A stretch of DNA of 64,000 nt from the NCBI GenBank assembly GCA_028753945.1, contig JAPNXP010000015.1, positions 3,516,022 to 3,580,021 of the forward strand, read 5' to 3'. The stretch's first letter is position 1. The number at the start of each line of letters is the position of its first letter. Position numbers and translations under genes: made by a program. Origin of the DNA: Hexactinellida sp. DTS-2022 (Eukaryota; Porifera; Hexactinellida). Positions 20,848-64,000 of this stretch are shown here, in pieces. The notes beneath the pieces were generated by a model. The model was not told where the DNA came from. It was given only the letters and a program-made list of their open reading frames with translations, and made no database searches.

Positions 20848-23800
20848 ATGTCTGCATTCCCACACGCACACCCCCGCAGCGGGCCCCAGGAGCCGCCCTT
20901 CCTCAAGCAGAACACGCTCCCCACTCAGGACCGAGATCTGCGTTTCCTCAACCACCGCTCCCCCAACCACACCGGCCCGGTCTACCCAGGAGACCCGCAC
21001 GCGTGCGGACAGTTCATCCAGCCGCCGCCCCAGATAGACATGCCCCCCTATCGCGGCCAGCTGCCCCCCGTCCGGCCGCACTACGTCCCGCGGCACCAGC
21101 AGCAACAGAACCTGCAGAGACAGGTGTCGCTGCAGCTTTTCAACTACGCCAGCAGCGCAACTGCAGCTTCAGGTACGGACTAACTGCGAACTGATTACAA
21201 CCGAATTCTTGTTTTATTGTATTAGTGTAGGCAAGTTAAGTCAGCGATGATCCAGTGATTTTTATAATTGGATAAGAAATAGATTAGTTAGTTTGCAGGC
21301 GAAGGTATTTAATATTTGTTAGTGCGAGTAATTAATTGTTAATTTTTAATCAATATAATATGTCAACTATTTATATTATTTGTTTCTTTTGCAATTTCAG
21401 TGGAGTCCCCCCAAGCCCCTGAATTGCCACCGAAGCCGAACTCTGGCCTGCAGGCACAACAACAACAACACCCACAACAACAACAACAACAACATCAACA
21501 ACATCAACACCCACAACAACAACAACAACAACAACAACATATTACAGACCCATATGCCCCCCCTCCCCTCCCGGCTAGGCCGATGCACCAACTCGCCGTG
21601 GAGGCTGTGCCCCCCCACAGGGAGCCGCCCAGGTTAGTTTAGCTATCTCAGTTATTAGACTACCTCAACTGTATTGTAAGACTAGGAATATGTATTAGAA
21701 CAATGTGCTATGTAACAATAGTTATAATGAAAACAATCTCTCGCTGCATTCCATTTGCTCTCTTCTGTTGCTGTTCTATGCTTGTGTCGGCGGAAGAGGG
21801 ATTCTCCAGGTCCGCCACGCCCTCAGACGCGCCCGTGCAACTCGTGAAGCCCGACTACGAGCACCAGAAGCTGGAGATTATAGAGGAGAACGTGGACCTG
21901 CTGAATAGCATCGCCGGGGCGGTTGCCGTTGTCGCCGTCGTGGGTCCGTTTCATAGCGGAAAGTCGTTCCTGATGAATCAGCTGATGGGCAAGAGCAGCG
22001 GCTTCGGAATAGGAAAGTACGTGGACCCCAAGACCATGGGCATCTGGATGTGGGGGAACCCGATGACCGCAGACCTCGCGAGCAGGGGGAACATATCCAT
22101 TGTCTTTCTGGACACAGAGGGCTTCTCCTCGCGAAATGTTTCCGAGTTGTACGATGCGAAAATATTCGCAGTGACGAGTCTTCTTAGCTCGTTTTTGCTG
22201 TACAATTCTGTGAAGATCATCAACCAAGATGACCTGGAATACCTGGAGCTGTTGGCGCGCAGAACGCGGCTTTTCGCACTCCAGGCGCAGATCAATAAGT
22301 CCATCTACCACGACTCGTTCGACCACGAGCTGCTGCGCTTCCCGCCGCTGATCTGGGTGGTGCAGGACTTCGTGCAGGCCGCCAAGCCGGGCGAGTCCCC
22401 CACCGACTGGCTCAACAAACTGGTCGCCTCCACGATGAAGGAGAACCAGGACTTCGACCTCAGCCTCGCGGAAATATTCGCAGATCTGCACTGCCACCCA
22501 ATCTTTATCCCTTCCGCGGAAAAGAAGATTCTAGAAGATCTCTCCCTCGCGACTGAGGCCGATCTCACCGCGGACTTCAGAGCAGACCGCGACGCCCTCA
22601 AGAAGCGAATTACAGATACGATTAAGCCTAAGATGAAGTACAACAAGCCCATCCGCGGGCCCGAGCTGGCCACTTTGCTGCGCGTGCTAGTCATCGCCTC
22701 CAACGACGGGTCTCTGCCCGAGATCCCCGGGAGATGGAAGATATTCCTCGACCAGCTGAAGGTCTCCAGCAAGGAGAGCTGCATCCGCTACTACAACACA
22801 GAGCTCGAGAGCTTCAAGAACTCCACTGGGAACATCCCCCTCAACGTGAGCGTCCTGCGGCACTGGCACCTAGATATGCTCGCCAAGACCGAGGCTCTGT
22901 TTCGCAGTCTGCTGCTGGGCTACTCGGAGCTGGTCGCGGTTCCGCTCACCGACCTCGCCAACAAGCTGGAGACCAAGTACCGCCTCGAGCGGGAGATAAA
23001 CCTGAAGCGGATTAACTCCAAGTGCATCGAGAGCAAGCAGCAGCAGAGCATAAGGGCGGAGCAGATGCTCGGCTCGCTGGAGCTCCCGCAGCGCATGCAC
23101 GAGCTGCGCGAGTACATAGAGTTCGTAAAGCGGGAGTGCTACAAGGACTACTGGGCAGCCGTGACATACCTGTCGGACGTTAAGGACGTTAAGCAGATCG
23201 GTAACGAGCTGCTGACTGCCATTAGTGAGATAGCGGTCACGTTTGTGGAGGAAAATTTAAGAAAGATTGTTGAGCTTTATGTGAGCGCGAAACAAATCGG
23301 AATTTCTGATTTCCGAAGTTCAACTGAGTTTAAGGTACAGGAACCTCTCATTTCGCGGGAGTTGAAACGGTTATCCGACCTCGCGGCTAATCAGGCGCGA
23401 AAAGCCGCAGAAACGTATGCTGACTCCTCTCTTGACAAAGGGAGCTACAAGGAGTTCTTAGAACAGCTAGAACAAGAGCTGATGAAAGAAGCAGCTGTGT
23501 TTTCTAACAAGAATGTTGCGATTTTAGCTTCCAAATGCCGCGAAGTAATCTCCGCTCTGAAGCTGGAGTTCACTGGCAACACGGGCCCCGACAAGATTCA
23601 GCTGCCGCTGTTCGAGGCGACCTTACAGACGCGCCTGCAGCTCGAGGAGAGCAAGGTGCATCGCAGGTACAGCGACCACTTCAATCAGTTCACGGAGTTC
23701 CCGGAAATAGAGGAGCACAGACAGAATCTGAAGAAGGAAATTCAGACACTGAGAGAGCAGCGGGTCCAGGATAATCTAGACGCGCTCACCAAAGAGGTTT

Positions 23801-26341
23801 CCATTCCTCTGGCCAATGCCGTCTCCATTGTTAAACTGTCCGCCGCGAAATATGACACTGTTTATGAGTTCAGAGAGTTTGTTATCCGCGTGTGTAGCAT
23901 CGAGCTGAAGAAAGGGAAGGCAGTCGACTGGTCGGAAGACATGCGAGCGAATGTGATAGATAACTTTATAAGCGGAGATAAGTTCGTTCAAAGCGAGATC
24001 CAGGAAAGAGAGGGACTGTTTTCTAGCGTGAAGGGGTGGCTGTTGAGAATCTTTAGTTTTTTCATGTCATTTTTGTTTAGTGAATCTAGTGATCTATAAA
24101 TTGATAGCATACATGTTAGCCATTGTTAGGAGTTTAATAATTTCTCTCTTTGCTTAGTCCTGAGAAGAGGTCGACCAGCGGGCGGTATAACGGGGCGGAC
24201 CCGGGCCTGACTGCCCAGCTGGAGGAGCTCTCCAGGGATCCGGGCGCCGTCGCGGAGAAGCTGAAGCGCGTCGCGGAAGTTCTCATCGCTTTTCCGCGGA
24301 AATACGAGGCCGCCATCCAGGGCAAGACCAAGCTGCTGCAGGAGTCCATTCTGCTCGGACAGCAGGACCTGCGGCTGCTGCGCGAAGAGCTGCAGCGGGC
24401 CAGGAGCTCCCTCGTGACGTCACAGACCGACACACACGCCCTCATGGGGGAGATGCAGGTGCTGAGACAGGAGAACCTGCAGCTTAAACAGGTGAGTGGG
24501 TTAAGAGTTGCACAGGTTATAAGTTACAAGTTGTAACAGGCTGGGAGTTTGCCCGAGCCCTGCTACACGGACGAAGAGACGCAGCTGCTGATTGCGGATC
24601 TGAGGAGTCAGATTGCGAACCTCAAGTCGGAGGTCCCGGACCCGAATCTCTGCGAGAGTCTCCGTCTCATGATTAAGCTCCTCGAGGAGGACAGGAAGGC
24701 AGTCGAGGTATGACAGCATTCTCTGTCATTTGTTAACTTTAGTTCTAACGGCTTTTGTAGAAAAAGTACACACAAGTTAGCGACGAGCTGCATAACCGGG
24801 ACAACGAGATTTCGCGTCTCCTGAAGGAGCACGAGGCGAGCGGTAACTTCATCCAGGAGGGCCGGACGGGTCTGGAGAAGCACTTCAACGCTCAGATGGA
24901 GGAGCTGCGCCGGGAGCGGGGCTCTCTGCGGCAGCAGCTGGAGATAGCGGAGCAGAAGCTGGAGGTGTCGCAGCGGAGAGAAGTGGCCGAGCACGAGCCG
25001 GGGCCCAGCCGGGTAGAGCTACAGGTAACCAGTGTGTTACAGGCGTTTGTAATACGCTCCTAATCCTGTCTGATCCGATTTCCATACGCATAATCACAAA
25101 TTAAAGTTACGGTACTACAGGGGAAGTTTCCAAATTTTTGCGCTCCTAAATTTATTCCTAGACGGACTGTGTATATGAATGTGTGTGCTGTAGGGAGTGA
25201 TAGAGACTGCGAACGGGTTCCGTGAGCAGCTGCAGGGGCGCATACGGGACCGGGACGAGGAGATAACGCGCCTGAAGAAACAGCTGGTGGACAGCAGACA
25301 GGTCATCTCCTCTTCCTACACCGGAAGTGACCCCAGCTCTAGCCCGTACAGCGGGTCCGAGAGTGAGGCGCGGATTAGCGAGGAGATGCTGGGACTGCAG
25401 ATAGAGAACCGGAACCTGGACAGAGAGGTGCGGGAGCTGCGAAAGCGCAGCGGGGCGGAGGGGGAGACCGAGCGGCTGGAGAGAGAGCTCGCGGGGGAGC
25501 GGGAGCGCGTGCGGCGCTGCGAGAGACTCGTCGAGGAGAAGGAAGCGGAGCTGCAGCTGCTAGCCAGTGCGGACCACGGACACAAGGATAGCGTAGGTGC
25601 TGTTGCCCCTATGCGATGTGTTGTTAACTCTGTGCTTAGGAGAAGGACGATATGATAGAAACGCTGCTGGGAACAAAGGCGTCTCTGTCGCATGCTGTGC
25701 AAGAACTGAATGTGAAGCTGGAGGACCAGAAGCAGCTGAAGAACGAGATCGTGGTGCTCCGCAACTGGCTGGAGGGCAGAGACAGACACATACAGCAAAC
25801 CAACGACTCCATGTCCCAGCAGATCAAGGAGCTGGACTACTACAAGCGACTGGCAGACGAGTACGTAAAGCGGTACAACGGCACCATGGACTACTACAAT
25901 AAGCTGAAAGAGGACCTGGCCAAGAGCGACAACTCACTGCAGTGGTTCAAGCAGCGAGCGCGGGATCTGGAAACCAAGCAGTCCTCCACGCCCGACTTCA
26001 ACACGGCCAAGGAGGTGTACGACGCGCACGTAGAACAGCTGACGCAGGAGATCGAGGCGCTGCGGGCCGACAAGAAGAAGGCGGACAGTGCGTGCAGCGA
26101 GCGCGAGACCCAGATCAAGCGGCTCGAGAGAGACCTCAAGGACCTGAGTGTGGAGTTCGCGCAGCTCAAGAACGAGAGGCACCAGCCCATGGCCCCGTAT
26201 CCGCAGAACATGTACTACATGCAAGACCCCCCCGGGGCCGCCAGGATTCCCGAGCCGTACAACGTGCCGAGGCTCCCGCCCAGTAGGGAGTATGGACAGG
26301 GACGAGACACCGGCGTGGCGTATCCCAATCCGAAGAAATAA
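20848..26341 (+). CDS. Long coiled-coil protein with Pro/Gln-rich N-terminus; 7 exons, one intron holding another gene
   Basis: Exons: 20848-21172, 21401-21632, 24158-24491, 24540-24707, 24761-25024, 25194-25592, 25640-26341. All junctions are GT..AG and the phases agree, giving 807 residues. Residues about 1-185 are Pro-rich, then Gln/His-rich (CAA repeats). Residues about 200-750 are mostly heptad-type coiled coil. The C-terminus is Pro/Tyr-rich, ending N-P-K-K. Introns are 228, 2525, 48, 53, 169 and 47 bp; the five short ones contrast with the 2525-bp intron, which is almost entirely filled by a separate GTPase gene. Exon 2 ends after two bases of a codon and exon 3 begins with the third, restoring a Ser codon, which supports joining across the nested gene. 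No orthologue recognised; a cytoskeletal or scaffold role is inferred only from the coiled coil. The next gene is a probable paralogue. Confidence 0.75.
21455..21540 (+). repeat. CAA-rich tract encoding Gln/His repeats
   Basis: Long runs of CAA interrupted by CAT and CCA encode poly-Gln with His and Pro in exon 2 of the coiled-coil gene. Confidence 0.85.
21703..24099 (+). CDS. GBP/atlastin-like large GTPase with signal peptide, nested in an intron
   Basis: 798 residues from the ATG at 21703; a second ATG at 21727 gives a better signal peptide (MKTISRC.. then a hydrophobic run ending near V-S-A). The GTPase domain has the P-loop GPFHSGKSF, a TMGIW switch I segment typical of guanylate-binding proteins, and DTEGF in G3. 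The G4 region reads W-V-V-Q-D-F where GBPs usually have R-D. A long helical C-terminal half follows, as in GBPs, and the last 25 residues contain a hydrophobic stretch (F-S-F-F-M-S-F-L-F). GBPs are interferon-type immune GTPases in vertebrates; atlastin and Sey1 relatives fuse ER membranes. A signal peptide plus a C-terminal hydrophobic segment suggests an ER or secretory location, unlike vertebrate GBPs. The gene is a single exon lying wholly within the 2525-bp intron of a coiled-coil gene on the same strand. Confidence 0.88.
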   Translation: MCYVTIVIMKTISRCIPFALFCCCSMLVSAEEGFSRSATPSDAPVQLVKPDYEHQKLEIIEENVDLLNSIAGAVAVVAVVGPFHSGKSFLMNQLMGKSSGFGIGKYVDPKTMGIWMWGNPMTADLASRGNISIVFLDTEGFSSRNVSELYDAKIFAVTSLLSSFLLYNSVKIINQDDLEYLELLARRTRLFALQAQINKSIYHDSFDHELLRFPPLIWVVQDFVQAAKPGESPTDWLNKLVASTMKENQDFDLSLAEIFADLHCHPIFIPSAEKKILEDLSLATEADLTADFRADRDALKKRITDTIKPKMKYNKPIRGPELATLLRVLVIASNDGSLPEIPGRWKIFLDQLKVSSKESCIRYYNTELESFKNSTGNIPLNVSVLRHWHLDMLAKTEALFRSLLLGYSELVAVPLTDLANKLETKYRLEREINLKRINSKCIESKQQQSIRAEQMLGSLELPQRMHELREYIEFVKRECYKDYWAAVTYLSDVKDVKQIGNELLTAISEIAVTFVEENLRKIVELYVSAKQIGISDFRSSTEFKVQEPLISRELKRLSDLAANQARKAAETYADSSLDKGSYKEFLEQLEQELMKEAAVFSNKNVAILASKCREVISALKLEFTGNTGPDKIQLPLFEATLQTRLQLEESKVHRRYSDHFNQFTEFPEIEEHRQNLKKEIQTLREQRVQDNLDALTKEVSIPLANAVSIVKLSAAKYDTVYEFREFVIRVCSIELKKGKAVDWSEDMRANVIDNFISGDKFVQSEIQEREGLFSSVKGWLLRIFSFFMSFLFSESSDL

Positions 26342-46160: not shown

Positions 46161-48386
46161 CTACATAGCTTGGTTCTCGGGAATGGCTTGGAACTCTTGG
46201 TCTTGCTTATCAGAGGTGAGGTAGCAGGAGCAAGTCCGGGACTCTATTTGCTTGAGCGCTTGCCACATATTCTTGTCTTTGAACCAGACGTGCTGTAGAG
46301 CCCTGCTCACGTTGAATCTCTGCCTCACGCTCACCTCCATCAGATGGTTAACCAGGTCGATAGCGGGCGGAGAGATCAGTTTCCAAGGGTGGGAGGGGTA
46401 CATGAACTCCTGGTTGCTCACTTGCGACTTTATATCTTCGTCCTCGTTGAAAGGGAAGGTTCCGCTGAGACTGACGTAGGTGATGACGCCGCAGGACCAC
46501 ATGTCCAGCGCGCGGTTGTACCCGCTGCTGTCCAGCACCTCCGGCGCCACGTACGCAGGGGTGCCCACCAGCGACCGGCGGAACTGCTCGGTGTTAATCA
46601 TGCGCGCGTAGCCGAAGTCGCAGAGCTTAACCTGGTAGGGCGTCTCCTTGCTGACCAGCAGCACGTTCTCCGGCTTCAGGTCGCAGTGCACCGCGTCGTG
46701 CTTGTGCAGGTACCGGAGCGCTATTAGGATCTGGTAGATGACTACTTTGGTGTTGAACTCGTCCAGACGGCCCGTGGGCTGAGTGAGGATCAGCTCCAGC
46801 ATGTCTCCGGCCAGTCGCTCCATTACCACAAACAGCATCTTCCAATTCTCAAACACTTTCTCTAACCCCACTATACCGGAATGGTTTATGCCCTGTAGGA
46901 ACAGAACTTCGTTCAGGAGCGCCTGCTTCTCCTCAACAGGAAACTGGTTCTTCTCAATGGCCTTAACTGCGACCAGTCTGCCCGACTTCCTGTTCACGCC
47001 TCCGAACACGGTTCCGAACTGCCCGCTGCCCAGGATGTCCTGGTGGAAGACCTGGTAGAATAGACTGATGTCCAGCGTCTCGGTTTTTATGATGGCCTCA
47101 GAAGCTAATTTTGGAACTTTGAAAGATCCGCGCATGTGTTGTTGCTTGTGCAGTGCACCAAATTTACCCTTACGAGCTGGCCTAAAAGCGATGAATTCTG
47201 ACTTTCCAGAAATAACAGCTGTGGGCTCTCTGGCGGCGCCTTTGGGTGCTTGTTCAGTTCGCGTGGGCGGTTCTGGATCTGATTCCAGAGTAAAAGGCAT
47301 GAGCAGTGCGTGAATTTCATTCTCCCAATTAACCATGGATGCGAGTCCTATCCCGAACTCTGGCCAGTCCTTCTCCTGCAGCTCGTGCAGATTGAACACG
47401 TCTCCGGGATTAACAGGGTTGTTAGAGAAATGAATCAGCTCATCCTTGGTGGTAACGTCCAATCCCATATAGTATTCCATACCATCATTAGTAATCAGTA
47501 ACAGACAAGGAACAGGACTTATCTTAGAAGGTCCTTGCGGAGAGATCACTGCCCCATGGGGAACAATCGTCTGGATGGAGGCGAGGGAGATTTGGAAAGT
47601 TCTTTGCTTAGCGTCTGGAGTTAAAAAGAAGCTCAGGGATTTGTAAGAGAGGCGACAGTATAGCTGCTGATGGACCAAATTCTTGTTTGTACAGAAAATA
47701 ATCCATCCCTCCTTCATTGAAGCAGGAACCTGTCCATGCACTTTAACTGAAGCGCCTTTGCGTTGTGAAATTCGCGACACTCGCGAAAATGTATTCTTAC
47801 GATCCTGTATCTTTAGTACTTTCGGTTGATCGACTTCGCCTCGAAGAATGCATCCTAGTTCCCTGGCATCCGATGCATTAGGTATGTGGAAACACGAAAT
47901 TGAATCTGGATTGTCGATGTATCCGGGAAGAAGAGACTTGTCGATTGCTCGCTCTAAAAATATATAAACACACTTATCGTGTCTGTGATAGGTTTCAAGC
48001 GATTTGAAGAGTCCGGTCGTGGAAAAACGTTGAAAGGATTCCTCATAGATTGCACCAGACTCTTTGTTCAAGAGAATCTGTTTGAGAGTGGGAGAGCATA
48101 CAACGAGGATTATATTAGACTCATTCATGTGTTTATTATACCAGCCATGCCAAGCTGAAACAGTAAACCTTTTCGATTCAAAAAATGGTTCAGAAAATGC
48201 ATCGATTTTTTCGGCTTCCCGCAGAGATTTCGTCAATGTTACTATACGCTCCTTTTCCTCCTTCATTTGCGATTTGTCCAAATCCATATCGGGTTCTCTG
48301 GAAAAGACTATGAGGGCCTTGTAAGAAATGTCAGCAGTTTCATAAGTAGAAACTGGAGGTAGGGGAGAAGCATTTGAGGTGGCCAT
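46161..48386 (-). CDS. SEFIR/TIR-like domain + PH + protein kinase D catalytic domain
   Basis: 741 residues from the ATG at 48386. I chose this start because a strong 3' splice-like tract (TTTTTTGCTTTTCAG) ends 5 bp upstream; the frame is open to an ATG at 48539. Residues about 20-170 fit a SEFIR fold: K-A-L-I-V-F-S-R at strand A, W-H-G-W-Y-N-K-H-M-N-E-S-N-I-I-L-V-V-C-S, and V-Y-I-F-L-E. Residues about 225-365 match the PH domain of protein kinase D, including E-I-H-A-L-L-M-P-F at its end. The kinase domain (about 445-703) is PKD-type and looks active: G-loop 453-459, Lys475, Glu493, HCD 567-569, DFG 590-592, then Y-V-S-L-S-G-T-F-P-F-N-E-D-E-D-I. The two activation-loop serines of PKD are Gln601 and Ser605 here. 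The C1a/C1b domains that bind diacylglycerol in all classical PKDs are absent. Confidence 0.88.
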   Translation of the reverse strand: MATSNASPLPPVSTYETADISYKALIVFSREPDMDLDKSQMKEEKERIVTLTKSLREAEKIDAFSEPFFESKRFTVSAWHGWYNKHMNESNIILVVCSPTLKQILLNKESGAIYEESFQRFSTTGLFKSLETYHRHDKCVYIFLERAIDKSLLPGYIDNPDSISCFHIPNASDARELGCILRGEVDQPKVLKIQDRKNTFSRVSRISQRKGASVKVHGQVPASMKEGWIIFCTNKNLVHQQLYCRLSYKSLSFFLTPDAKQRTFQISLASIQTIVPHGAVISPQGPSKISPVPCLLLITNDGMEYYMGLDVTTKDELIHFSNNPVNPGDVFNLHELQEKDWPEFGIGLASMVNWENEIHALLMPFTLESDPEPPTRTEQAPKGAAREPTAVISGKSEFIAFRPARKGKFGALHKQQHMRGSFKVPKLASEAIIKTETLDISLFYQVFHQDILGSGQFGTVFGGVNRKSGRLVAVKAIEKNQFPVEEKQALLNEVLFLQGINHSGIVGLEKVFENWKMLFVVMERLAGDMLELILTQPTGRLDEFNTKVVIYQILIALRYLHKHDAVHCDLKPENVLLVSKETPYQVKLCDFGYARMINTEQFRRSLVGTPAYVAPEVLDSSGYNRALDMWSCGVITYVSLSGTFPFNEDEDIKSQVSNQEFMYPSHPWKLISPPAIDLVNHLMEVSVRQRFNVSRALQHVWFKDKNMWQALKQIESRTCSCYLTSDKQDQEFQAIPENQAM

Positions 48387-48573
48387 ATTGGCTGAAAAGC
48401 AAAAAAGGAAAAATATGGAGATTAAAACAATCAATAACAGAAAATACAGTATAGAACGAAAGCCGAAAGGGTAAGGCAAGTATTTATACAATGGAATCAA
48501 ATAATCTGAACGAAAAATGATGTAATGACAATTCCACATACAATTTAAAAAAAATTGCAGCTGTGCCTACGTA

Positions 48574-48707
48574 CAGGGCCCGATTAAGCTAGATGGGGGC
48601 CTGAAGCACAGCTCAATTTGGGGGCCCCTTAGACCTCCCGATAGAGCCCCTAGAGGCTGGGGGCCTGAGGCCTGTGCCTCAGGTGCCTCATGGTTAATCG
48701 GGCACTG
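48574..48707. mobile_element. 134-bp hAT-type MITE with 8-bp target-site duplication
   Basis: Ends are CAGGGCCCGATTAA and its near-perfect inverse TTAATCGGGCACTG (13 of 14 match). The identical 8-bp sequence CCTACGTA flanks the element at 48566-48573 and 48708-48715. CAG-NG termini with 8-bp duplications are the hallmark of the hAT superfamily. The interior is GC-rich with palindromic GGGGGCC motifs and no coding capacity, so it is non-autonomous. Confidence 0.9.
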
Positions 48708-48895
48708 CCTACGTATACCCCTTTGACCTTTGTAGGCACTAACCATTGTTGTCTACTGGCTGGTTATTGGATAGAGCCTCCAAAGGAAAATGCAGTCAGC
48801 ACAGACTACAATATTTGATTTTTTTCATCATGTCAAAGAACTTTTAAAGTGGTAAGACTCATTTAGCAATTTGTTATGGCACAGAGACGATAGTT

Positions 48896-49275
48896 AGGCC
48901 ACTGTTTGTTGGATTCTTGTTTCAGCTCCACCCCGCGTCAGATTTCACTCCTGCACGAATATTGTCATTATTCCCATTATTACACCTATAATTCAAAGTA
49001 AGGCCACTGTTCGTTGCCAATTTTATTGTAGGACACACTCTAAATAGCCATAATTAGCTAGTAACAAAATCAGAACCTATAACAAGGAATATTACCCAAC
49101 GATTGCATATTTTATCAATAAGCACTCACAAATTAGAATATTTACTCAGATAATTATTAACTATGTCGTCATCAAATAATGAGATAATGATAATGAGATG
49201 CCGAACGCCCGAAAACTCTGATAGACTTCGTGTGGAGCTGAAACAACAAAGTCATTAACAGTGGCCTTATATTTG
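48896..49275. repeat. Inverted-repeat element with a third internal copy of its end
   Basis: 48896-48931 (AGGCCACTG..CAGCTCCAC) pairs with the inverse sequence at 49232-49267, matching over about 30 of 36 positions. A second copy of the outer end (TTCAAAGTAAGGCCACTGTT) lies at about 48992 and matches the inverse of 49255-49275. The layout suggests a nested or partly duplicated non-autonomous transposon. No coding frame. Confidence 0.65.
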
Positions 49276-49359
49276 AAGTTAATTTCTATCTTGGAACATC
49301 TTGAGTCAGAGATGAATGCCAATCGTTAATTAATTATGTATTGATAAAAAATGAAATTA

Positions 49360-50158
49360 CAGTAGAACTCGGTTAAATAAGACCAATGAACCTTTCAAAG
49401 ACGATTTTGATAGTCTAAAAATACAAGACAACCAGAAAATTGTTCCTTTTCACTAGACTAATTGAATTTACATTGAATACCGACAGTTTTCACAAGGCAA
49501 CCGTTCAAAGTCTACACAAATAGCAGTCACTGCTTTACCCCGGAAACTCGCATTAGAATCAATTAGACAGATACATTTTAAATTTAAGCAAATGGACCAG
49601 TTAGAAGACGCTTTGGTGATTAAAAAAAATAGTCTCGATTTAGAATTGGCTATTCTTGACACTGGAATACACCAAAGTCACTTAACTATGCGAGACTTTT
49701 CTCTAGGTGCCATATATACACAATTTATATCACTGGTTTTACCCCTGATCCATACTAGAAAATTAGCAAAAGTGATGATTTTAACTACATCCAATGAACC
49801 CTTCATAAGACAATTTGTTACTCTAAAAAAGACATGACGAACCGGAAAGAGTTCATTTTCACGAGGCTGCATAGAACTGACATTGAATAGAGACAGTTTT
49901 CACAAGGCATCCCTTCCAACACAATTCAAATAGGACTTCTTTACCCCGAAAACTCGCATTACAGTCCATTAAAAACATAGATTTTAAATTTAAGCAAATG
50001 GACCAGTTAGAAGACGCTTTGGTGATAAAAAAATATAGTCTTGATTTAGAATTGGCTATTCTTGACACTGGAATACACCAAAGTAACTTAACTATGCGAG
50101 ACTATTCTCTAGGTGCCATATATACACAATTAATATCACTGGTTTTACCCATAAAAAA
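49360..50158. repeat. Two tandem ~408-bp units bordering the satellite
   Basis: The unit starts with CCAATGAACC at 49383 and again at 49791; later landmarks (AATTTAAGCAAATGGACCAG at 49581 and 49987) confirm a 406-408-bp period. The second copy is cut at about 50150 where the 212-bp satellite begins. The left flank at 49360 reads TACAGTAGAACTCGGTTAAA, which resembles a pogo/Tigger-type transposon end (CAGTAGAAC-CTCGGTTA) after a TA, but no matching right end is seen. Short open frames in both copies lack conserved features. Confidence 0.65.
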
Positions 50159-53100
50159 ATAGATTTTAAGAATGCTATAAAAGTCCATTTGGAAGGTGAC
50201 TGTTTGACAATAAACAATCCAGGTCACTTTAAAAAGAGATTTACTTTTCACCAGACATCCCAAACATCACATAAAGATAGCCAGTCCTTTCACTATACCC
50301 CATCAAACACAATTAAGAAGAAGAATTCTATCACTCCCTTCGTTCCCAGCCAATTTTTAACCAACCAAAGATAGATTTTAAGAATGCTATAAAAGTCCAT
50401 TTGGAAGGTGACTGTTTGACAATAAACAATCCAGGTCACTTTAAAAAGAGATTTACTTTTCACCAGACATCCCAAACATCACATAAAGATAGCCAGTCCT
50501 TTCACTATACCCCATCAAACACAATTAAGAAGAAGAATTCTATCACTCCCTTCGTTCCCAGCCAATTTTTAACCAACCAAAGATAGATTTTAAGAATGCT
50601 ATAAAAGTCCATTTGGAAGGTGACTGTTTGACAATAAACAATCCAGGTCACTTTAAAAAGAGATTTACTTTTCACCAGACATCCCAAACATCACATAAAG
50701 ATAGCCAGTCCTTTCACTATACCCCATCAAACACAATTAAGAAGAAGAATTCTATCACTCCCTTCGTTCCCAGCCAATTTTTAACCAACCAAAGATAGAT
50801 TTTAAGAATGCTATAAAAGTCCATTTGGAAGGTGACTGTTTGACAATAAACAATCCAGGTCACTTTAAAAAGAGATTTACTTTTCACCAGACATCCCAAA
50901 CATCACATAAAGATAGCCAGTCCTTTCACTATACCCCATCAAACACAATTAAGAAGAAGAATTCTATCACTCCCTTCGTTCCCAGCCAATTTTTAACCAA
51001 CCAAAGATAGATTTTAAGAATGCTATAAAAGTCCATTTGGAAGGTGACTGTTTGACAATAAACAATCCAGGTCACTTTAAAAAGAGATTTACTTTTCACC
51101 AGACATCCCAAACATCACATAAAGATAGCCAGTCCTTTCACTATACCCCATCAAACACAATTAAGAAGAAGAATTCTATCACTCCCTTCGTTCCCAGCCA
51201 ATTTTTAACCAACCAAAGATAGATTTTAAGAATGCTATAAAAGTCCATTTGGAAGGTGACTGTTTGACAATAAACAATCCAGGTCACTTTAAAAAGAGAT
51301 TTACTTTTCACCAGACATCCCAAACATCACATAAAGATAGCCAGTCCTTTCACTATACCCCATCAAACACAATTAAGAAGAAGAATTCTATCACTCCCTT
51401 CGTTCCCAGCCAATTTTTAACCAACCAAAGATAGATTTTAAGAATGCTATAAAAGTCCATTTGGAAGGTGACTGTTTGACAATAAACAATCCAGGTCACT
51501 TTAAAAAGAGATTTACTTTTCACCAGACATCCCAAACATCACATAAAGATAGCCAGTCCTTTCACTATACCCCATCAAACACAATTAAGAAGAAGAATTC
51601 TATCACTCCCTTCGTTCCCAGCCAATTTTTAACCAACCAAAGATAGATTTTAAGAATGCTATAAAAGTCCATTTGGAAGGTGACTGTTTGACAATAAACA
51701 ATCCAGGTCACTTTAAAAAGAGATTTACTTTTCACCAGACATCCCAAACATCACATAAAGATAGCCAGTCCTTTCACTATACCCCATCAAACACAATTAA
51801 GAAGAAGAATTCTATCACTCCCTTCGTTCCCAGCCAATTTTTAACCAACCAAAGATAGATTTTAAGAATGCTATAAAAGTCCATTTGGAAGGTGACTGTT
51901 TGACAATAAACAATCCAGGTCACTTTAAAAAGAGATTTACTTTTCACCAGACATCCCAAACATCACATAAAGATAGCCAGTCCTTTCACTATACCCCATC
52001 AAACACAATTAAGAAGAAGAATTCTATCACTCCCTTCGTTCCCAGCCAATTTTTAACCAACCAAAGATAGATTTTAAGAATGCTATAAAAGTCCATTTGG
52101 AAGGTGACTGTTTGACAATAAACAATCCAGGTCACTTTAAAAAGAGATTTACTTTTCACCAGACATCCCAAACATCACATAAAGATAGCCAGTCCTTTCA
52201 CTATACCCCATCAAACACAATTAAGAAGAAGAATTCTATCACTCCCTTCGTTCCCAGCCAATTTTTAACCAACCAAAGATAGATTTTAAGAATGCTATAA
52301 AAGTCCATTTGGAAGGTGACTGTTTGACAATAAACAATCCAGGTCACTTTAAAAAGAGATTTACTTTTCACCAGACATCCCAAACATCACATAAAGATAG
52401 CCAGTCCTTTCACTATACCCCATCAAACACAATTAAGAAGAAGAATTCTATCACTCCCTTCGTTCCCAGCCAATTTTTAACCAACCAAAGATAGATTTTA
52501 AGAATGCTATAAAAGTCCATTTGGAAGGTGACTGTTTGACAATAAACAATCCAGGTCACTTTAAAAAGAGATTTACTTTTCACCAGACATCCCAAACATC
52601 ACATAAAGATAGCCAGTCCTTTCACTATACCCCATCAAACACAATTAAGAAGAAGAATTCTATCACTCCCTTCGTTCCCAGCCAATTTTTAACCAACCAA
52701 AGATAGATTTTAAGAATGCTATAAAAGTCCATTTGGAAGGTGACTGTTTGACAATAAACAATCCAGGTCACTTTAAAAAGAGATTTACTTTTCACCAGAC
52801 ATCCCAAACATCACATAAAGATAGCCAGTCCTTTCACTATACCCCATCAAACACAATTAAGAAGAAGAATTCTATCACTCCCTTCGTTCCCAGCCAATTT
52901 TTAACCAACCAAAGATAGATTTTAAGAATGCTATAAAAGTCCATTTGGAAGGTGACTGTTTGACAATAAACAATCCAGGTCACTTTAAAAAGAGATTTAC
53001 TTTTCACCAGACATCCCAAACATCACATAAAGATAGCCAGTCCTTTCACTATACCCCATCAAACACAATTAAGAAGAAGAATTCTATCACTCCCTTCGTT

Positions 53101-56100
53101 CCCAGCCAATTTTTAACCAACCAAAGATAGATTTTAAGAATGCTATAAAAGTCCATTTGGAAGGTGACTGTTTGACAATAAACAATCCAGGTCACTTTAA
53201 AAAGAGATTTACTTTTCACCAGACATCCCAAACATCACATAAAGATAGCCAGTCCTTTCACTATACCCCATCAAACACAATTAAGAAGAAGAATTCTATC
53301 ACTCCCTTCGTTCCCAGCCAATTTTTAACCAACCAAAGATAGATTTTAAGAATGCTATAAAAGTCCATTTGGAAGGTGACTGTTTGACAATAAACAATCC
53401 AGGTCACTTTAAAAAGAGATTTACTTTTCACCAGACATCCCAAACATCACATAAAGATAGCCAGTCCTTTCACTATACCCCATCAAACACAATTAAGAAG
53501 AAGAATTCTATCACTCCCTTCGTTCCCAGCCAATTTTTAACCAACCAAAGATAGATTTTAAGAATGCTATAAAAGTCCATTTGGAAGGTGACTGTTTGAC
53601 AATAAACAATCCAGGTCACTTTAAAAAGAGATTTACTTTTCACCAGACATCCCAAACATCACATAAAGATAGCCAGTCCTTTCACTATACCCCATCAAAC
53701 ACAATTAAGAAGAAGAATTCTATCACTCCCTTCGTTCCCAGCCAATTTTTAACCAACCAAAGATAGATTTTAAGAATGCTATAAAAGTCCATTTGGAAGG
53801 TGACTGTTTGACAATAAACAATCCAGGTCACTTTAAAAAGAGATTTACTTTTCACCAGACATCCCAAACATCACATAAAGATAGCCAGTCCTTTCACTAT
53901 ACCCCATCAAACACAATTAAGAAGAAGAATTCTATCACTCCCTTCGTTCCCAGCCAATTTTTAACCAACCAAAGATAGATTTTAAGAATGCTATAAAAGT
54001 CCATTTGGAAGGTGACTGTTTGACAATAAACAATCCAGGTCACTTTAAAAAGAGATTTACTTTTCACCAGACATCCCAAACATCACATAAAGATAGCCAG
54101 TCCTTTCACTATACCCCATCAAACACAATTAAGAAGAAGAATTCTATCACTCCCTTCGTTCCCAGCCAATTTTTAACCAACCAAAGATAGATTTTAAGAA
54201 TGCTATAAAAGTCCATTTGGAAGGTGACTGTTTGACAATAAACAATCCAGGTCACTTTAAAAAGAGATTTACTTTTCACCAGACATCCCAAACATCACAT
54301 AAAGATAGCCAGTCCTTTCACTATACCCCATCAAACACAATTAAGAAGAAGAATTCTATCACTCCCTTCGTTCCCAGCCAATTTTTAACCAACCAAAGAT
54401 AGATTTTAAGAATGCTATAAAAGTCCATTTGGAAGGTGACTGTTTGACAATAAACAATCCAGGTCACTTTAAAAAGAGATTTACTTTTCACCAGACATCC
54501 CAAACATCACATAAAGATAGCCAGTCCTTTCACTATACCCCATCAAACACAATTAAGAAGAAGAATTCTATCACTCCCTTCGTTCCCAGCCAATTTTTAA
54601 CCAACCAAAGATAGATTTTAAGAATGCTATAAAAGTCCATTTGGAAGGTGACTGTTTGACAATAAACAATCCAGGTCACTTTAAAAAGAGATTTACTTTT
54701 CACCAGACATCCCAAACATCACATAAAGATAGCCAGTCCTTTCACTATACCCCATCAAACACAATTAAGAAGAAGAATTCTATCACTCCCTTCGTTCCCA
54801 GCCAATTTTTAACCAACCAAAGATAGATTTTAAGAATGCTATAAAAGTCCATTTGGAAGGTGACTGTTTGACAATAAACAATCCAGGTCACTTTAAAAAG
54901 AGATTTACTTTTCACCAGACATCCCAAACATCACATAAAGATAGCCAGTCCTTTCACTATACCCCATCAAACACAATTAAGAAGAAGAATTCTATCACTC
55001 CCTTCGTTCCCAGCCAATTTTTAACCAACCAAAGATAGATTTTAAGAATGCTATAAAAGTCCATTTGGAAGGTGACTGTTTGACAATAAACAATCCAGGT
55101 CACTTTAAAAAGAGATTTACTTTTCACCAGACATCCCAAACATCACATAAAGATAGCCAGTCCTTTCACTATACCCCATCAAACACAATTAAGAAGAAGA
55201 ATTCTATCACTCCCTTCGTTCCCAGCCAATTTTTAACCAACCAAAGATAGATTTTAAGAATGCTATAAAAGTCCATTTGGAAGGTGACTGTTTGACAATA
55301 AACAATCCAGGTCACTTTAAAAAGAGATTTACTTTTCACCAGACATCCCAAACATCACATAAAGATAGCCAGTCCTTTCACTATACCCCATCAAACACAA
55401 TTAAGAAGAAGAATTCTATCACTCCCTTCGTTCCCAGCCAATTTTTAACCAACCAAAGATAGATTTTAAGAATGCTATAAAAGTCCATTTGGAAGGTGAC
55501 TGTTTGACAATAAACAATCCAGGTCACTTTAAAAAGAGATTTACTTTTCACCAGACATCCCAAACATCACATAAAGATAGCCAGTCCTTTCACTATACCC
55601 CATCAAACACAATTAAGAAGAAGAATTCTATCACTCCCTTCGTTCCCAGCCAATTTTTAACCAACCAAAGATAGATTTTAAGAATGCTATAAAAGTCCAT
55701 TTGGAAGGTGACTGTTTGACAATAAACAATCCAGGTCACTTTAAAAAGAGATTTACTTTTCACCAGACATCCCAAACATCACATAAAGATAGCCAGTCCT
55801 TTCACTATACCCCATCAAACACAATTAAGAAGAAGAATTCTATCACTCCCTTCGTTCCCAGCCAATTTTTAACCAACCAAAGATAGATTTTAAGAATGCT
55901 ATAAAAGTCCATTTGGAAGGTGACTGTTTGACAATAAACAATCCAGGTCACTTTAAAAAGAGATTTACTTTTCACCAGACATCCCAAACATCACATAAAG
56001 ATAGCCAGTCCTTTCACTATACCCCATCAAACACAATTAAGAAGAAGAATTCTATCACTCCCTTCGTTCCCAGCCAATTTTTAACCAACCAAAGATAGAT

Positions 56101-59100
56101 TTTAAGAATGCTATAAAAGTCCATTTGGAAGGTGACTGTTTGACAATAAACAATCCAGGTCACTTTAAAAAGAGATTTACTTTTCACCAGACATCCCAAA
56201 CATCACATAAAGATAGCCAGTCCTTTCACTATACCCCATCAAACACAATTAAGAAGAAGAATTCTATCACTCCCTTCGTTCCCAGCCAATTTTTAACCAA
56301 CCAAAGATAGATTTTAAGAATGCTATAAAAGTCCATTTGGAAGGTGACTGTTTGACAATAAACAATCCAGGTCACTTTAAAAAGAGATTTACTTTTCACC
56401 AGACATCCCAAACATCACATAAAGATAGCCAGTCCTTTCACTATACCCCATCAAACACAATTAAGAAGAAGAATTCTATCACTCCCTTCGTTCCCAGCCA
56501 ATTTTTAACCAACCAAAGATAGATTTTAAGAATGCTATAAAAGTCCATTTGGAAGGTGACTGTTTGACAATAAACAATCCAGGTCACTTTAAAAAGAGAT
56601 TTACTTTTCACCAGACATCCCAAACATCACATAAAGATAGCCAGTCCTTTCACTATACCCCATCAAACACAATTAAGAAGAAGAATTCTATCACTCCCTT
56701 CGTTCCCAGCCAATTTTTAACCAACCAAAGATAGATTTTAAGAATGCTATAAAAGTCCATTTGGAAGGTGACTGTTTGACAATAAACAATCCAGGTCACT
56801 TTAAAAAGAGATTTACTTTTCACCAGACATCCCAAACATCACATAAAGATAGCCAGTCCTTTCACTATACCCCATCAAACACAATTAAGAAGAAGAATTC
56901 TATCACTCCCTTCGTTCCCAGCCAATTTTTAACCAACCAAAGATAGATTTTAAGAATGCTATAAAAGTCCATTTGGAAGGTGACTGTTTGACAATAAACA
57001 ATCCAGGTCACTTTAAAAAGAGATTTACTTTTCACCAGACATCCCAAACATCACATAAAGATAGCCAGTCCTTTCACTATACCCCATCAAACACAATTAA
57101 GAAGAAGAATTCTATCACTCCCTTCGTTCCCAGCCAATTTTTAACCAACCAAAGATAGATTTTAAGAATGCTATAAAAGTCCATTTGGAAGGTGACTGTT
57201 TGACAATAAACAATCCAGGTCACTTTAAAAAGAGATTTACTTTTCACCAGACATCCCAAACATCACATAAAGATAGCCAGTCCTTTCACTATACCCCATC
57301 AAACACAATTAAGAAGAAGAATTCTATCACTCCCTTCGTTCCCAGCCAATTTTTAACCAACCAAAGATAGATTTTAAGAATGCTATAAAAGTCCATTTGG
57401 AAGGTGACTGTTTGACAATAAACAATCCAGGTCACTTTAAAAAGAGATTTACTTTTCACCAGACATCCCAAACATCACATAAAGATAGCCAGTCCTTTCA
57501 CTATACCCCATCAAACACAATTAAGAAGAAGAATTCTATCACTCCCTTCGTTCCCAGCCAATTTTTAACCAACCAAAGATAGATTTTAAGAATGCTATAA
57601 AAGTCCATTTGGAAGGTGACTGTTTGACAATAAACAATCCAGGTCACTTTAAAAAGAGATTTACTTTTCACCAGACATCCCAAACATCACATAAAGATAG
57701 CCAGTCCTTTCACTATACCCCATCAAACACAATTAAGAAGAAGAATTCTATCACTCCCTTCGTTCCCAGCCAATTTTTAACCAACCAAAGATAGATTTTA
57801 AGAATGCTATAAAAGTCCATTTGGAAGGTGACTGTTTGACAATAAACAATCCAGGTCACTTTAAAAAGAGATTTACTTTTCACCAGACATCCCAAACATC
57901 ACATAAAGATAGCCAGTCCTTTCACTATACCCCATCAAACACAATTAAGAAGAAGAATTCTATCACTCCCTTCGTTCCCAGCCAATTTTTAACCAACCAA
58001 AGATAGATTTTAAGAATGCTATAAAAGTCCATTTGGAAGGTGACTGTTTGACAATAAACAATCCAGGTCACTTTAAAAAGAGATTTACTTTTCACCAGAC
58101 ATCCCAAACATCACATAAAGATAGCCAGTCCTTTCACTATACCCCATCAAACACAATTAAGAAGAAGAATTCTATCACTCCCTTCGTTCCCAGCCAATTT
58201 TTAACCAACCAAAGATAGATTTTAAGAATGCTATAAAAGTCCATTTGGAAGGTGACTGTTTGACAATAAACAATCCAGGTCACTTTAAAAAGAGATTTAC
58301 TTTTCACCAGACATCCCAAACATCACATAAAGATAGCCAGTCCTTTCACTATACCCCATCAAACACAATTAAGAAGAAGAATTCTATCACTCCCTTCGTT
58401 CCCAGCCAATTTTTAACCAACCAAAGATAGATTTTAAGAATGCTATAAAAGTCCATTTGGAAGGTGACTGTTTGACAATAAACAATCCAGGTCACTTTAA
58501 AAAGAGATTTACTTTTCACCAGACATCCCAAACATCACATAAAGATAGCCAGTCCTTTCACTATACCCCATCAAACACAATTAAGAAGAAGAATTCTATC
58601 ACTCCCTTCGTTCCCAGCCAATTTTTAACCAACCAAAGATAGATTTTAAGAATGCTATAAAAGTCCATTTGGAAGGTGACTGTTTGACAATAAACAATCC
58701 AGGTCACTTTAAAAAGAGATTTACTTTTCACCAGACATCCCAAACATCACATAAAGATAGCCAGTCCTTTCACTATACCCCATCAAACACAATTAAGAAG
58801 AAGAATTCTATCACTCCCTTCGTTCCCAGCCAATTTTTAACCAACCAAAGATAGATTTTAAGAATGCTATAAAAGTCCATTTGGAAGGTGACTGTTTGAC
58901 AATAAACAATCCAGGTCACTTTAAAAAGAGATTTACTTTTCACCAGACATCCCAAACATCACATAAAGATAGCCAGTCCTTTCACTATACCCCATCAAAC
59001 ACAATTAAGAAGAAGAATTCTATCACTCCCTTCGTTCCCAGCCAATTTTTAACCAACCAAAGATAGATTTTAAGAATGCTATAAAAGTCCATTTGGAAGG

Positions 59101-62100
59101 TGACTGTTTGACAATAAACAATCCAGGTCACTTTAAAAAGAGATTTACTTTTCACCAGACATCCCAAACATCACATAAAGATAGCCAGTCCTTTCACTAT
59201 ACCCCATCAAACACAATTAAGAAGAAGAATTCTATCACTCCCTTCGTTCCCAGCCAATTTTTAACCAACCAAAGATAGATTTTAAGAATGCTATAAAAGT
59301 CCATTTGGAAGGTGACTGTTTGACAATAAACAATCCAGGTCACTTTAAAAAGAGATTTACTTTTCACCAGACATCCCAAACATCACATAAAGATAGCCAG
59401 TCCTTTCACTATACCCCATCAAACACAATTAAGAAGAAGAATTCTATCACTCCCTTCGTTCCCAGCCAATTTTTAACCAACCAAAGATAGATTTTAAGAA
59501 TGCTATAAAAGTCCATTTGGAAGGTGACTGTTTGACAATAAACAATCCAGGTCACTTTAAAAAGAGATTTACTTTTCACCAGACATCCCAAACATCACAT
59601 AAAGATAGCCAGTCCTTTCACTATACCCCATCAAACACAATTAAGAAGAAGAATTCTATCACTCCCTTCGTTCCCAGCCAATTTTTAACCAACCAAAGAT
59701 AGATTTTAAGAATGCTATAAAAGTCCATTTGGAAGGTGACTGTTTGACAATAAACAATCCAGGTCACTTTAAAAAGAGATTTACTTTTCACCAGACATCC
59801 CAAACATCACATAAAGATAGCCAGTCCTTTCACTATACCCCATCAAACACAATTAAGAAGAAGAATTCTATCACTCCCTTCGTTCCCAGCCAATTTTTAA
59901 CCAACCAAAGATAGATTTTAAGAATGCTATAAAAGTCCATTTGGAAGGTGACTGTTTGACAATAAACAATCCAGGTCACTTTAAAAAGAGATTTACTTTT
60001 CACCAGACATCCCAAACATCACATAAAGATAGCCAGTCCTTTCACTATACCCCATCAAACACAATTAAGAAGAAGAATTCTATCACTCCCTTCGTTCCCA
60101 GCCAATTTTTAACCAACCAAAGATAGATTTTAAGAATGCTATAAAAGTCCATTTGGAAGGTGACTGTTTGACAATAAACAATCCAGGTCACTTTAAAAAG
60201 AGATTTACTTTTCACCAGACATCCCAAACATCACATAAAGATAGCCAGTCCTTTCACTATACCCCATCAAACACAATTAAGAAGAAGAATTCTATCACTC
60301 CCTTCGTTCCCAGCCAATTTTTAACCAACCAAAGATAGATTTTAAGAATGCTATAAAAGTCCATTTGGAAGGTGACTGTTTGACAATAAACAATCCAGGT
60401 CACTTTAAAAAGAGATTTACTTTTCACCAGACATCCCAAACATCACATAAAGATAGCCAGTCCTTTCACTATACCCCATCAAACACAATTAAGAAGAAGA
60501 ATTCTATCACTCCCTTCGTTCCCAGCCAATTTTTAACCAACCAAAGATAGATTTTAAGAATGCTATAAAAGTCCATTTGGAAGGTGACTGTTTGACAATA
60601 AACAATCCAGGTCACTTTAAAAAGAGATTTACTTTTCACCAGACATCCCAAACATCACATAAAGATAGCCAGTCCTTTCACTATACCCCATCAAACACAA
60701 TTAAGAAGAAGAATTCTATCACTCCCTTCGTTCCCAGCCAATTTTTAACCAACCAAAGATAGATTTTAAGAATGCTATAAAAGTCCATTTGGAAGGTGAC
60801 TGTTTGACAATAAACAATCCAGGTCACTTTAAAAAGAGATTTACTTTTCACCAGACATCCCAAACATCACATAAAGATAGCCAGTCCTTTCACTATACCC
60901 CATCAAACACAATTAAGAAGAAGAATTCTATCACTCCCTTCGTTCCCAGCCAATTTTTAACCAACCAAAGATAGATTTTAAGAATGCTATAAAAGTCCAT
61001 TTGGAAGGTGACTGTTTGACAATAAACAATCCAGGTCACTTTAAAAAGAGATTTACTTTTCACCAGACATCCCAAACATCACATAAAGATAGCCAGTCCT
61101 TTCACTATACCCCATCAAACACAATTAAGAAGAAGAATTCTATCACTCCCTTCGTTCCCAGCCAATTTTTAACCAACCAAAGATAGATTTTAAGAATGCT
61201 ATAAAAGTCCATTTGGAAGGTGACTGTTTGACAATAAACAATCCAGGTCACTTTAAAAAGAGATTTACTTTTCACCAGACATCCCAAACATCACATAAAG
61301 ATAGCCAGTCCTTTCACTATACCCCATCAAACACAATTAAGAAGAAGAATTCTATCACTCCCTTCGTTCCCAGCCAATTTTTAACCAACCAAAGATAGAT
61401 TTTAAGAATGCTATAAAAGTCCATTTGGAAGGTGACTGTTTGACAATAAACAATCCAGGTCACTTTAAAAAGAGATTTACTTTTCACCAGACATCCCAAA
61501 CATCACATAAAGATAGCCAGTCCTTTCACTATACCCCATCAAACACAATTAAGAAGAAGAATTCTATCACTCCCTTCGTTCCCAGCCAATTTTTAACCAA
61601 CCAAAGATAGATTTTAAGAATGCTATAAAAGTCCATTTGGAAGGTGACTGTTTGACAATAAACAATCCAGGTCACTTTAAAAAGAGATTTACTTTTCACC
61701 AGACATCCCAAACATCACATAAAGATAGCCAGTCCTTTCACTATACCCCATCAAACACAATTAAGAAGAAGAATTCTATCACTCCCTTCGTTCCCAGCCA
61801 ATTTTTAACCAACCAAAGATAGATTTTAAGAATGCTATAAAAGTCCATTTGGAAGGTGACTGTTTGACAATAAACAATCCAGGTCACTTTAAAAAGAGAT
61901 TTACTTTTCACCAGACATCCCAAACATCACATAAAGATAGCCAGTCCTTTCACTATACCCCATCAAACACAATTAAGAAGAAGAATTCTATCACTCCCTT
62001 CGTTCCCAGCCAATTTTTAACCAACCAAAGATAGATTTTAAGAATGCTATAAAAGTCCATTTGGAAGGTGACTGTTTGACAATAAACAATCCAGGTCACT

Positions 62101-64000
62101 TTAAAAAGAGATTTACTTTTCACCAGACATCCCAAACATCACATAAAGATAGCCAGTCCTTTCACTATACCCCATCAAACACAATTAAGAAGAAGAATTC
62201 TATCACTCCCTTCGTTCCCAGCCAATTTTTAACCAACCAAAGATAGATTTTAAGAATGCTATAAAAGTCCATTTGGAAGGTGACTGTTTGACAATAAACA
62301 ATCCAGGTCACTTTAAAAAGAGATTTACTTTTCACCAGACATCCCAAACATCACATAAAGATAGCCAGTCCTTTCACTATACCCCATCAAACACAATTAA
62401 GAAGAAGAATTCTATCACTCCCTTCGTTCCCAGCCAATTTTTAACCAACCAAAGATAGATTTTAAGAATGCTATAAAAGTCCATTTGGAAGGTGACTGTT
62501 TGACAATAAACAATCCAGGTCACTTTAAAAAGAGATTTACTTTTCACCAGACATCCCAAACATCACATAAAGATAGCCAGTCCTTTCACTATACCCCATC
62601 AAACACAATTAAGAAGAAGAATTCTATCACTCCCTTCGTTCCCAGCCAATTTTTAACCAACCAAAGATAGATTTTAAGAATGCTATAAAAGTCCATTTGG
62701 AAGGTGACTGTTTGACAATAAACAATCCAGGTCACTTTAAAAAGAGATTTACTTTTCACCAGACATCCCAAACATCACATAAAGATAGCCAGTCCTTTCA
62801 CTATACCCCATCAAACACAATTAAGAAGAAGAATTCTATCACTCCCTTCGTTCCCAGCCAATTTTTAACCAACCAAAGATAGATTTTAAGAATGCTATAA
62901 AAGTCCATTTGGAAGGTGACTGTTTGACAATAAACAATCCAGGTCACTTTAAAAAGAGATTTACTTTTCACCAGACATCCCAAACATCACATAAAGATAG
63001 CCAGTCCTTTCACTATACCCCATCAAACACAATTAAGAAGAAGAATTCTATCACTCCCTTCGTTCCCAGCCAATTTTTAACCAACCAAAGATAGATTTTA
63101 AGAATGCTATAAAAGTCCATTTGGAAGGTGACTGTTTGACAATAAACAATCCAGGTCACTTTAAAAAGAGATTTACTTTTCACCAGACATCCCAAACATC
63201 ACATAAAGATAGCCAGTCCTTTCACTATACCCCATCAAACACAATTAAGAAGAAGAATTCTATCACTCCCTTCGTTCCCAGCCAATTTTTAACCAACCAA
63301 AGATAGATTTTAAGAATGCTATAAAAGTCCATTTGGAAGGTGACTGTTTGACAATAAACAATCCAGGTCACTTTAAAAGAGATTTACTTTTCACCAGACA
63401 TCCCAAACATCACATAAAGATAGCCAGTCCTTTCACTATACCCCATCAAACACAATTAAGAAGAAGAATTCTATCACTCCCTTCGTTCCCAGCCAATTTT
63501 TAACCAACCAAAGATAGATTTTAAGAATGCTATAAAAGTCCATTTGGAAGGTGACTGTTTGACAATAAACAATCCAGGTCACTTTAAAAAGAGATTTACT
63601 TTTCACCAGACATCCCAAACATCACATAAAGATAGCCAGTCCTTTCACTATACCCCATCAAACACAATTAAGAAGAAGAATTCTATCACTCCCTTCGTTC
63701 CCAGCCAATTTTTAACCAACCAAAGATAGATTTTAAGAATGCTATAAAAGTCCATTTGGAAGGTGACTGTTTGACAATAAACAATCCAGGTCACTTTAAA
63801 AAGAGATTTACTTTTCACCAGACATCCCAAACATCACATAAAGATAGCCAGTCCTTTCACTATACCCCATCAAACACAATTAAGAAGAAGAATTCTATCA
63901 CTCCCTTCGTTCCCAGCCAATTTTTAACCAACCAAAGATAGATTTTAAGAATGCTATAAAAGTCCATTTGGAAGGTGACTGTTTGACAATAAACAATCCA
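50159..64000. repeat. 212-bp satellite array, at least 65 copies, continuing past the window
   Basis: From 50159 (ATAGATTTTAAG) the sequence is a head-to-tail array with a period of exactly 212 bp to the right edge: 65 full copies and a fraction. Copies appear identical by eye apart from one: a single A is missing from the A5 run in the monomer near 63375. Each monomer contains a TATAAAAG box, an AAGGTGAC/GTCACTTT inverted pair, and a CCCTTCGTTCCCAGCC block. The monomer has no ATG-started frame longer than a few codons, and 212 is not divisible by 3. Open frames that recur in each copy on both strands start at TTG and are not genes. This is satellite DNA, possibly centromeric, subtelomeric or heterochromatic. 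Confidence 0.97.

Follow-up and report, generated by a model that had tools for sequence, protein, structure and literature searches.

A PKD-type kinase frame with a SEFIR-like head at a probably subtelomeric locus

The window, a 64,000-nucleotide stretch of the genome of Hexactinellida sp. DTS-2022 at one end of contig JAPNXP010000015.1 (C7), carries on its minus strand a reading frame at 46161-48539 that is open over 792 codons. Within it, an ATG at 48386 opens an intact frame of 741 codons (46161-48386, minus strand) without internal intron, detected by frame scan and as a single full-length match in the genome. It encodes a SEFIR-like head, a PH domain of protein kinase D (PKD) type and a PKD kinase domain, so that the SEFIR-PH-PKD fusion described in an earlier note on this DNA holds in substance; the predicted protein, termed SEFIR-PKD here, likely has the domain order SEFIR-PH-PKD. 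The motifs on which that description relied are all present in the translation, both in the head (KALIVFS at residues 23-29, WHGWY from 79, ESNIILVVCS at 89-98) and in the PH and kinase parts (MKEGW from 224, ALLMPF at 360-365, FPFNEDEDI at 644-652).

The start of the gene needs revision relative to the earlier note, which had placed it at 48539, as the first ~50 residues of the longer frame are probably untranslated. These ~50 codons run into TTTTTCCTTTTTTGCTTTTCAG, which of 109 YAG sites at 46161-50160 has the strongest pyrimidine tract (by pyrimidine count) and is annotated as a putative 3' splice site (pyrimidine tract and CAG, 48392-48416, minus strand; first exon base 48391). The predicted acceptor thus lies 5 bases ahead of the ATGGCC with which the SEFIR-PKD frame begins. 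ATGGC is also found in 8 of the 20 first ATGs listed for other frames of the window, and by eye none of these 20 directly follows a comparably long pyrimidine tract; the frame start at 44490 has a shorter one, CTCTTCTCACTGCAG, ~25 bases upstream. Given this strong acceptor and an ATGGCC context like that of other starts in the window, the ATG at 48386 is the likely true start of a 741-residue protein, and the upstream portion (48387-48539) most likely belongs to an intron or leader. Its translation, if any, would yield a hydrophobic stretch (Kyte-Doolittle 3.1 across 19 residues); within the 792-residue frame, the most hydrophobic windows of 19 residues are confined to this probable intron. 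The idea of a compositional patchwork of domains was rejected: GC3 is ~0.4 near the 5' end and reaches 0.9 in the kinase, a rise that shows no step where SEFIR and PH meet.

Repeats fill much of the DNA upstream of the gene. A repeat scan identified a small inverted-repeat element of 134 bp ~35 bp upstream of 48539 (48574-48707; 48566-48715 with its flanks), whose 14-nt ends (48574-48587 and 48694-48707) begin with CAGTG and are bordered on both sides by the 8-bp direct repeat TACGTAGG; judged from its ends, we take it to be of hAT type. A second inverted-repeat pair lies at 48896-49267, accompanied by degenerate repeats spaced 406-410 bp apart. On its 5' side, SEFIR-PKD is bounded by a 212-bp satellite array (50155-64000; 13.8 kb, 99% uniform) running to the end of the window, which is also the end of C7. 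As the same satellite recurs at 36-43 kb of C7 and at the end of contig C5, the locus is probably subtelomeric.

Kinase and PH domains are of PKD type

The kinase domain comprises residues 450-702 (46281-47039, minus strand; Pfam PF00069, E 3.8e-65), and the kinase part is 58% identical to human PKD1 over 286 gap-free residues. In a tree of 22 rows (SEFIR-PKD, 18 of 59 other matches in the genome and three human kinases), it groups with human PKD1 at 100/100, and the CHK2-like and CAMK1-like kinases of the same genome each join the corresponding human kinase (98/97 and 100/96, respectively). A PDB search with the kinase part placed CHK2 kinases on top, with no PKD kinase chain among the best 60 of 2698 matches; CHK2 is named as the closest relative of PKD in PMC9962925 (excerpt). 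The PH domain was located at residues 224-365 (47292-47717, minus strand). Searching the PDB with this part (164 residues) yielded seven matches, headed by the PH domains of PKD3 (2d9z, E 0.0028) and PKD2 (2coa, E 0.0032), the other five having E 0.36 or worse; the Pfam scan of the protein returned no PH match. The PKD character that the earlier note had assigned to both domains is thereby borne out.

The catalytic residues checked (K475, D569, D590) and S605 of the activation loop are retained. Eight of ten PKD1 positions compared are kept, namely K612, D665, D706, D727, R740, R741, S742 and E787, and two are changed (S738 to Q601, N757 to S620). The activation loop at Q601-S605 (46572-46586, minus strand) pairs S605, within FRRSLVGT, with S742 of PKD1, of which it is the predicted counterpart as an autophosphorylation site; the PKD1 numbers match those that PMC9962925 (excerpt) gives for these residues. 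An acidic patch in alpha-G, NEDEDI (46431-46448, minus strand), contains E650, the counterpart of E787. In PKD1, an inhibitory dimer of kinases arranged face to face breaks up when R741 or E787 is changed or S742 is phosphorylated; N757 is mentioned together with this contact (PMC9962925, excerpt). With eight of ten positions kept and S738 and N757 changed, the dimer contact appears mostly, not wholly, preserved. A genome search with SEFIR-PKD, in which 60 of 240 candidate places were scored, gave as next best a place 36% identical across the kinase domain, and hence no second PKD gene was found among these 60 places, all such counts being lower bounds.

Profiles place the N-terminal domain in the TIR/SEFIR superfamily

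The SEFIR-like domain extends over residues ~23-173 (47868-48320, minus strand), with an HMM envelope of 37-173 and an hhalign match to residues 23-159/161. Whether the head is recognised as a SEFIR domain, as the earlier note had it, depends on the profile used. Residues 1-208 match no Pfam family at E 10, SEFIR (PF08357) included, and no PDB chain at E 10 in a single-sequence search; the PF08357 cut-off is passed by five human SEFIRs, by all eight tested bacterial domains and by L077, a SEFIR gene elsewhere in this genome. A profile of six human SEFIRs was likewise not significant: the HMM match (E 0.09) ranked second behind one of 1000 shuffles, hhalign gave 8.4% with one of 200 shuffles scoring higher, and a three-sequence hhalign test gave 2.2%.

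Support for the assignment comes from profiles that include bacterial domains, for which 27 of 30 loci were used. Eight of these 27 were scanned with Pfam; all eight pass the cut-offs of both SEFIR and TIR_2, the latter scoring higher in six. The 27 bacterial domains alone match the head at E 0.0025 (14.2 bits; hhalign 75%). Combined with the six human SEFIRs into a 33-sequence profile, they score it at 20.8 bits (E 2.5e-5), which ranks it at the top of a set of 1239 sequences made up of 238 frames (three of them longer frames of the SEFIR-PKD gene), 1000 shuffles and the query, and the best of 10,000 shuffles reaches 7.9 bits. hhalign with this profile gave 89% (89-90%) at a score of 41.7, compared with 21.7 for the best of 200 shuffles, and less than 1% for the PH and kinase parts. 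Four alignment settings of a 34-sequence profile with L077 added yielded 18.1 to 21.5 bits. When the human SEFIRs were omitted singly in turn, scores ranged from 15.3 bits, with Act1 omitted, to 21.1 bits, Act1 being the largest contributor among the six. When four human TIRs replaced the human SEFIRs beside the bacterial domains, the score dropped to 11.7 bits (hhalign 59%), and the four TIRs alone gave 1.0 bit. Because human SEFIRs raise the score of the bacterial profile and human TIRs lower it, the profiles support placing the N-terminal domain in the TIR/SEFIR superfamily, nearer to SEFIR than to TIR.

L55, G111, E115 and P154 are invariant in all 28 rows formed by the query and the 27 bacterial domains. 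The G-x-x-Y-E motif frequent among bacterial TIR_2/SEFIR domains is retained in SEFIR-PKD (G111 and E115; 48056-48042, minus strand), and E115 presumably marks the position at which NAD-cleaving TIR enzymes carry their catalytic glutamate. A three-dimensional model from the single sequence displayed no confident fold (pLDDT 31.7). A genome search with residues 1-208 recovered the SEFIR-PKD gene itself as the sole match. A search of prokaryote genomes for close relatives of the N-terminus gave 27 pattern matches, none of them confirmed, and a search of viral contigs with the full-length protein gave two, likewise unconfirmed.

In ordinary PKD, a ubiquitin-like domain dimerises and a pair of C1 domains binds diacylglycerol (PMC6768651 and PMC9962925, excerpts). 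In line with the earlier note, no C1 domain was found in the protein by Pfam, in the six frames of the window by motif, or upstream on C7. The genome search for C1 gave 39 matches, with 78 of 78 candidates scored, and the single match on C7 lies 237 kb from SEFIR-PKD on its 3' side. Reading the N-terminus as a diverged C1 region was rejected, since it holds no C1 motif and residues 1-215 contain only four cysteines and five histidines. Nor was a ubiquitin-like dimer domain recognised among the PDB chains searched, which may or may not include that of DKF-1 and of which none matched residues 1-208 at E 10; in view of the profile match to the TIR/SEFIR superfamily, a ubiquitin-like identity is unlikely. 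A SEFIR-like docking domain occupying the N-terminal place of PKD is thus well supported by profile comparison.

SEFIR, Death and TIR genes elsewhere in the genome

Pfam family searches of the genome for SEFIR and TIR returned nothing, which does not amount to absence, as TIR_2 and direct protein queries did find such genes. L077 (C4:393073-393555, minus strand) encodes a SEFIR domain (Pfam E 8.8e-6); its following exon has no Death match on its own and reaches a Death match of E 6.5e-6 only in a hand-made join. It is probably a SEFIR-Death gene and as such a candidate partner of SEFIR-PKD. L079 (match at C1:5361436-5361897) is a frame of 570 codons combining a SEFIR-like part, which scores 15.7 bits with the 33-sequence profile and has no Pfam SEFIR match, with a C-terminal Death domain (E 4.8e-11), a second SEFIR architecture out of the ordinary. 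Ahead of the SEFIR-like part, L079 has ~260 residues whose resemblance to a caspase or CHAT domain was judged by eye alone. In L073, exons for Death (E 8e-9) and TIR_2 (E 4.1e-7) share a strand, which makes the gene MyD88-like; in L072, TIR_2 (E 5e-11) is preceded by a region that is Death-like by eye, with no Pfam Death match. In L076 (match at C4:537705-537881), a stretch resembling a membrane segment precedes the beginning of a TIR domain, and a second TIR piece lies further on; by eye it resembles an Ig-TIR receptor, the first TIR piece having no Pfam TIR match.

A PKD that may be controlled by protein docking

SEFIR-PKD shares with PKD (PRKD1-3, DKF-1 of C. elegans) the PH domain, the kinase with HCDLKPEN, the S742 site and the NEDEDI patch. 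It differs in that no C1a/C1b and no recognised ubiquitin-like domain were found and a SEFIR-like head stands in their place, and relative to PKD1 also in Q for S738, S for N757 and the lack of a PKD1-type C-terminal tail. The comparison suggests activation via protein docking rather than via a membrane lipid. We favor, at a probability of about 0.58, reading SEFIR-PKD as the protein kinase D of this animal with a changed head, whose input would be protein docking and not diacylglycerol. The head would then do both jobs of the lost N-terminus: it would bring the kinase to adaptors or receptors of SEFIR/Death type, and it would keep kinase copies together, a task that falls to the ubiquitin-like domain in ordinary PKD. 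Once clustered or released at these partners, the kinase would autophosphorylate S605 (S742 of PKD1) and might feed an NF-kB or MAPK output. The main switch at kinase level (S605 and the acidic alpha-G patch) is kept, whereas the activation loop has lost its second site and no lipid sensor was found. PKD kinase-domain dimers are inhibitory (PMC9962925, excerpt), and clustering need therefore not activate SEFIR-PKD. Since the genome holds SEFIR-Death and SEFIR-like-Death genes as well as MyD88-like exons, SEFIR-PKD may act alongside adaptors and not in their place, and the bypass of TRAF or Act1 proposed in the earlier note is only one possibility.

The head might alternatively be a diverged TIR-like fold that serves PKD dimerisation only, a stand-in for the ubiquitin-like domain unconnected to immune adaptors. 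Ordinary PKD does carry an N-terminal dimer domain (PMC6768651, excerpt), the TIR-plus-bacterial profile still scores beyond all 10,000 shuffles with 59% in hhalign, and the tested bacterial domains mostly favour TIR_2 over SEFIR. Against this stand the opposite effects of human SEFIRs and TIRs on the score and the 1.0 bit of the four-TIR profile, and we consider such a purely dimerising head unlikely. Somewhat less probable still are further exons upstream of 48391, which would make the protein longer and the SEFIR part internal, possibly behind a membrane segment or paired C1 domains. The strong predicted acceptor ahead of the ATG, the hydrophobic stretch encoded by the ~50 open codons before it and the end of C7 at the window end, with sequence past the satellite outside view, would fit this. 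The DNA in question, however, is mostly repetitive, made up of the pair of inverted-repeat elements, the satellite and degenerate repeats; the ATGGCC context resembles a start, and C1 exons in particular are disfavored by the lack of a C1 motif in the six frames and by the distant, 3'-sided position of the only C1 match on C7.

That the fusion is decaying or neutral, its frame intact through recency and its protein without special role, is highly improbable in our estimate. It is a single-copy gene at a subtelomere-like site adjoining satellite; yet its 741 codons are free of stops, the compared PKD1 positions are kept apart from S738 and N757, and the places scored in the genome revealed no other PKD, a kinase described as essential in animals (PMC6768651, excerpt).

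For the proposed docking-controlled PKD, parallels exist in several systems. Act1/CIKS (TRAF3IP2) and the IL-17 receptors have a SEFIR domain in common with SEFIR-PKD and, to our knowledge, contain no kinase. Act1 is labelled an E3 ubiquitin ligase in its PDB entry, and unlike IL-17 receptors the 741-residue frame has no receptor ectodomain that would bear out the 'receptor-type' label of the earlier note. IRAKs carry a Death domain and belong to a kinase family other than PKD. Like SEFIR-PKD, they combine an N-terminal homotypic docking domain with a kinase (PMC6321704, excerpt), and their recruitment follows MyD88 (PMC3426515, excerpt). Placozoans possess a SEFIR-Death, MyD88-like protein (PMC6321704, excerpt), which L077 resembles; as in SEFIR-PKD, SEFIR docking occurs there outside IL-17 receptors, with Death replacing the kinase. 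PKD1 is recruited to TLR9/MyD88 via IRAK4, IRAK1 and TRAF6 and is required for TRAF6 ubiquitination (PMC3426515, excerpt).

No described family with the order SEFIR-PH-PKD was found in searches of an open-access library, which covers only a minor part of the subscription literature, in keeping with the novelty claimed earlier; the fusion is absent from the excerpted texts of PMC12909245, PMC6321704, PMC8353272, PMC11797021 and PMC9815663, and the literature match for SEFIR with Pkinase concerns fungal NLRs. PMC8005150 (excerpt) places PKD within the diacylglycerol network. If the favored reading is true, the only detectable PKD of this animal is C1-less and bears an immune docking domain, which would uncouple kinase output from the usual lipid input. 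Domain fusions frequently mark cooperating proteins, and SEFIR-PKD thus points to a direct role of PKD in SEFIR/TIR signalling; we know of no mammalian link of PKD to that signalling other than via recruitment by IRAK4, IRAK1 and TRAF6. More tentatively, and in our judgement a little short of even odds, the lineage's only PKD would have shifted from lipid control to docking, placing the kinase directly in SEFIR/Death/MyD88-like assemblies as a one-polypeptide form of the IRAK-TRAF6 link. In a bolder form of the docking reading, the SEFIR domain, with G111 and E115, might also keep a residual nucleotide-related activity. Such a natural domain swap would offer a way to ask which tasks the N-terminus of PKD must perform.

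Elsewhere in the window, a 305-residue protein encoded at 11445-12359 (minus strand) carries a Death domain (E 5e-9) and an N-terminus that is death-effector-like by eye. A guanylate-binding-protein GTPase (E 1.2e-37) is encoded at 21703-24096 (plus strand) and represents a further immunity-type gene in the window.
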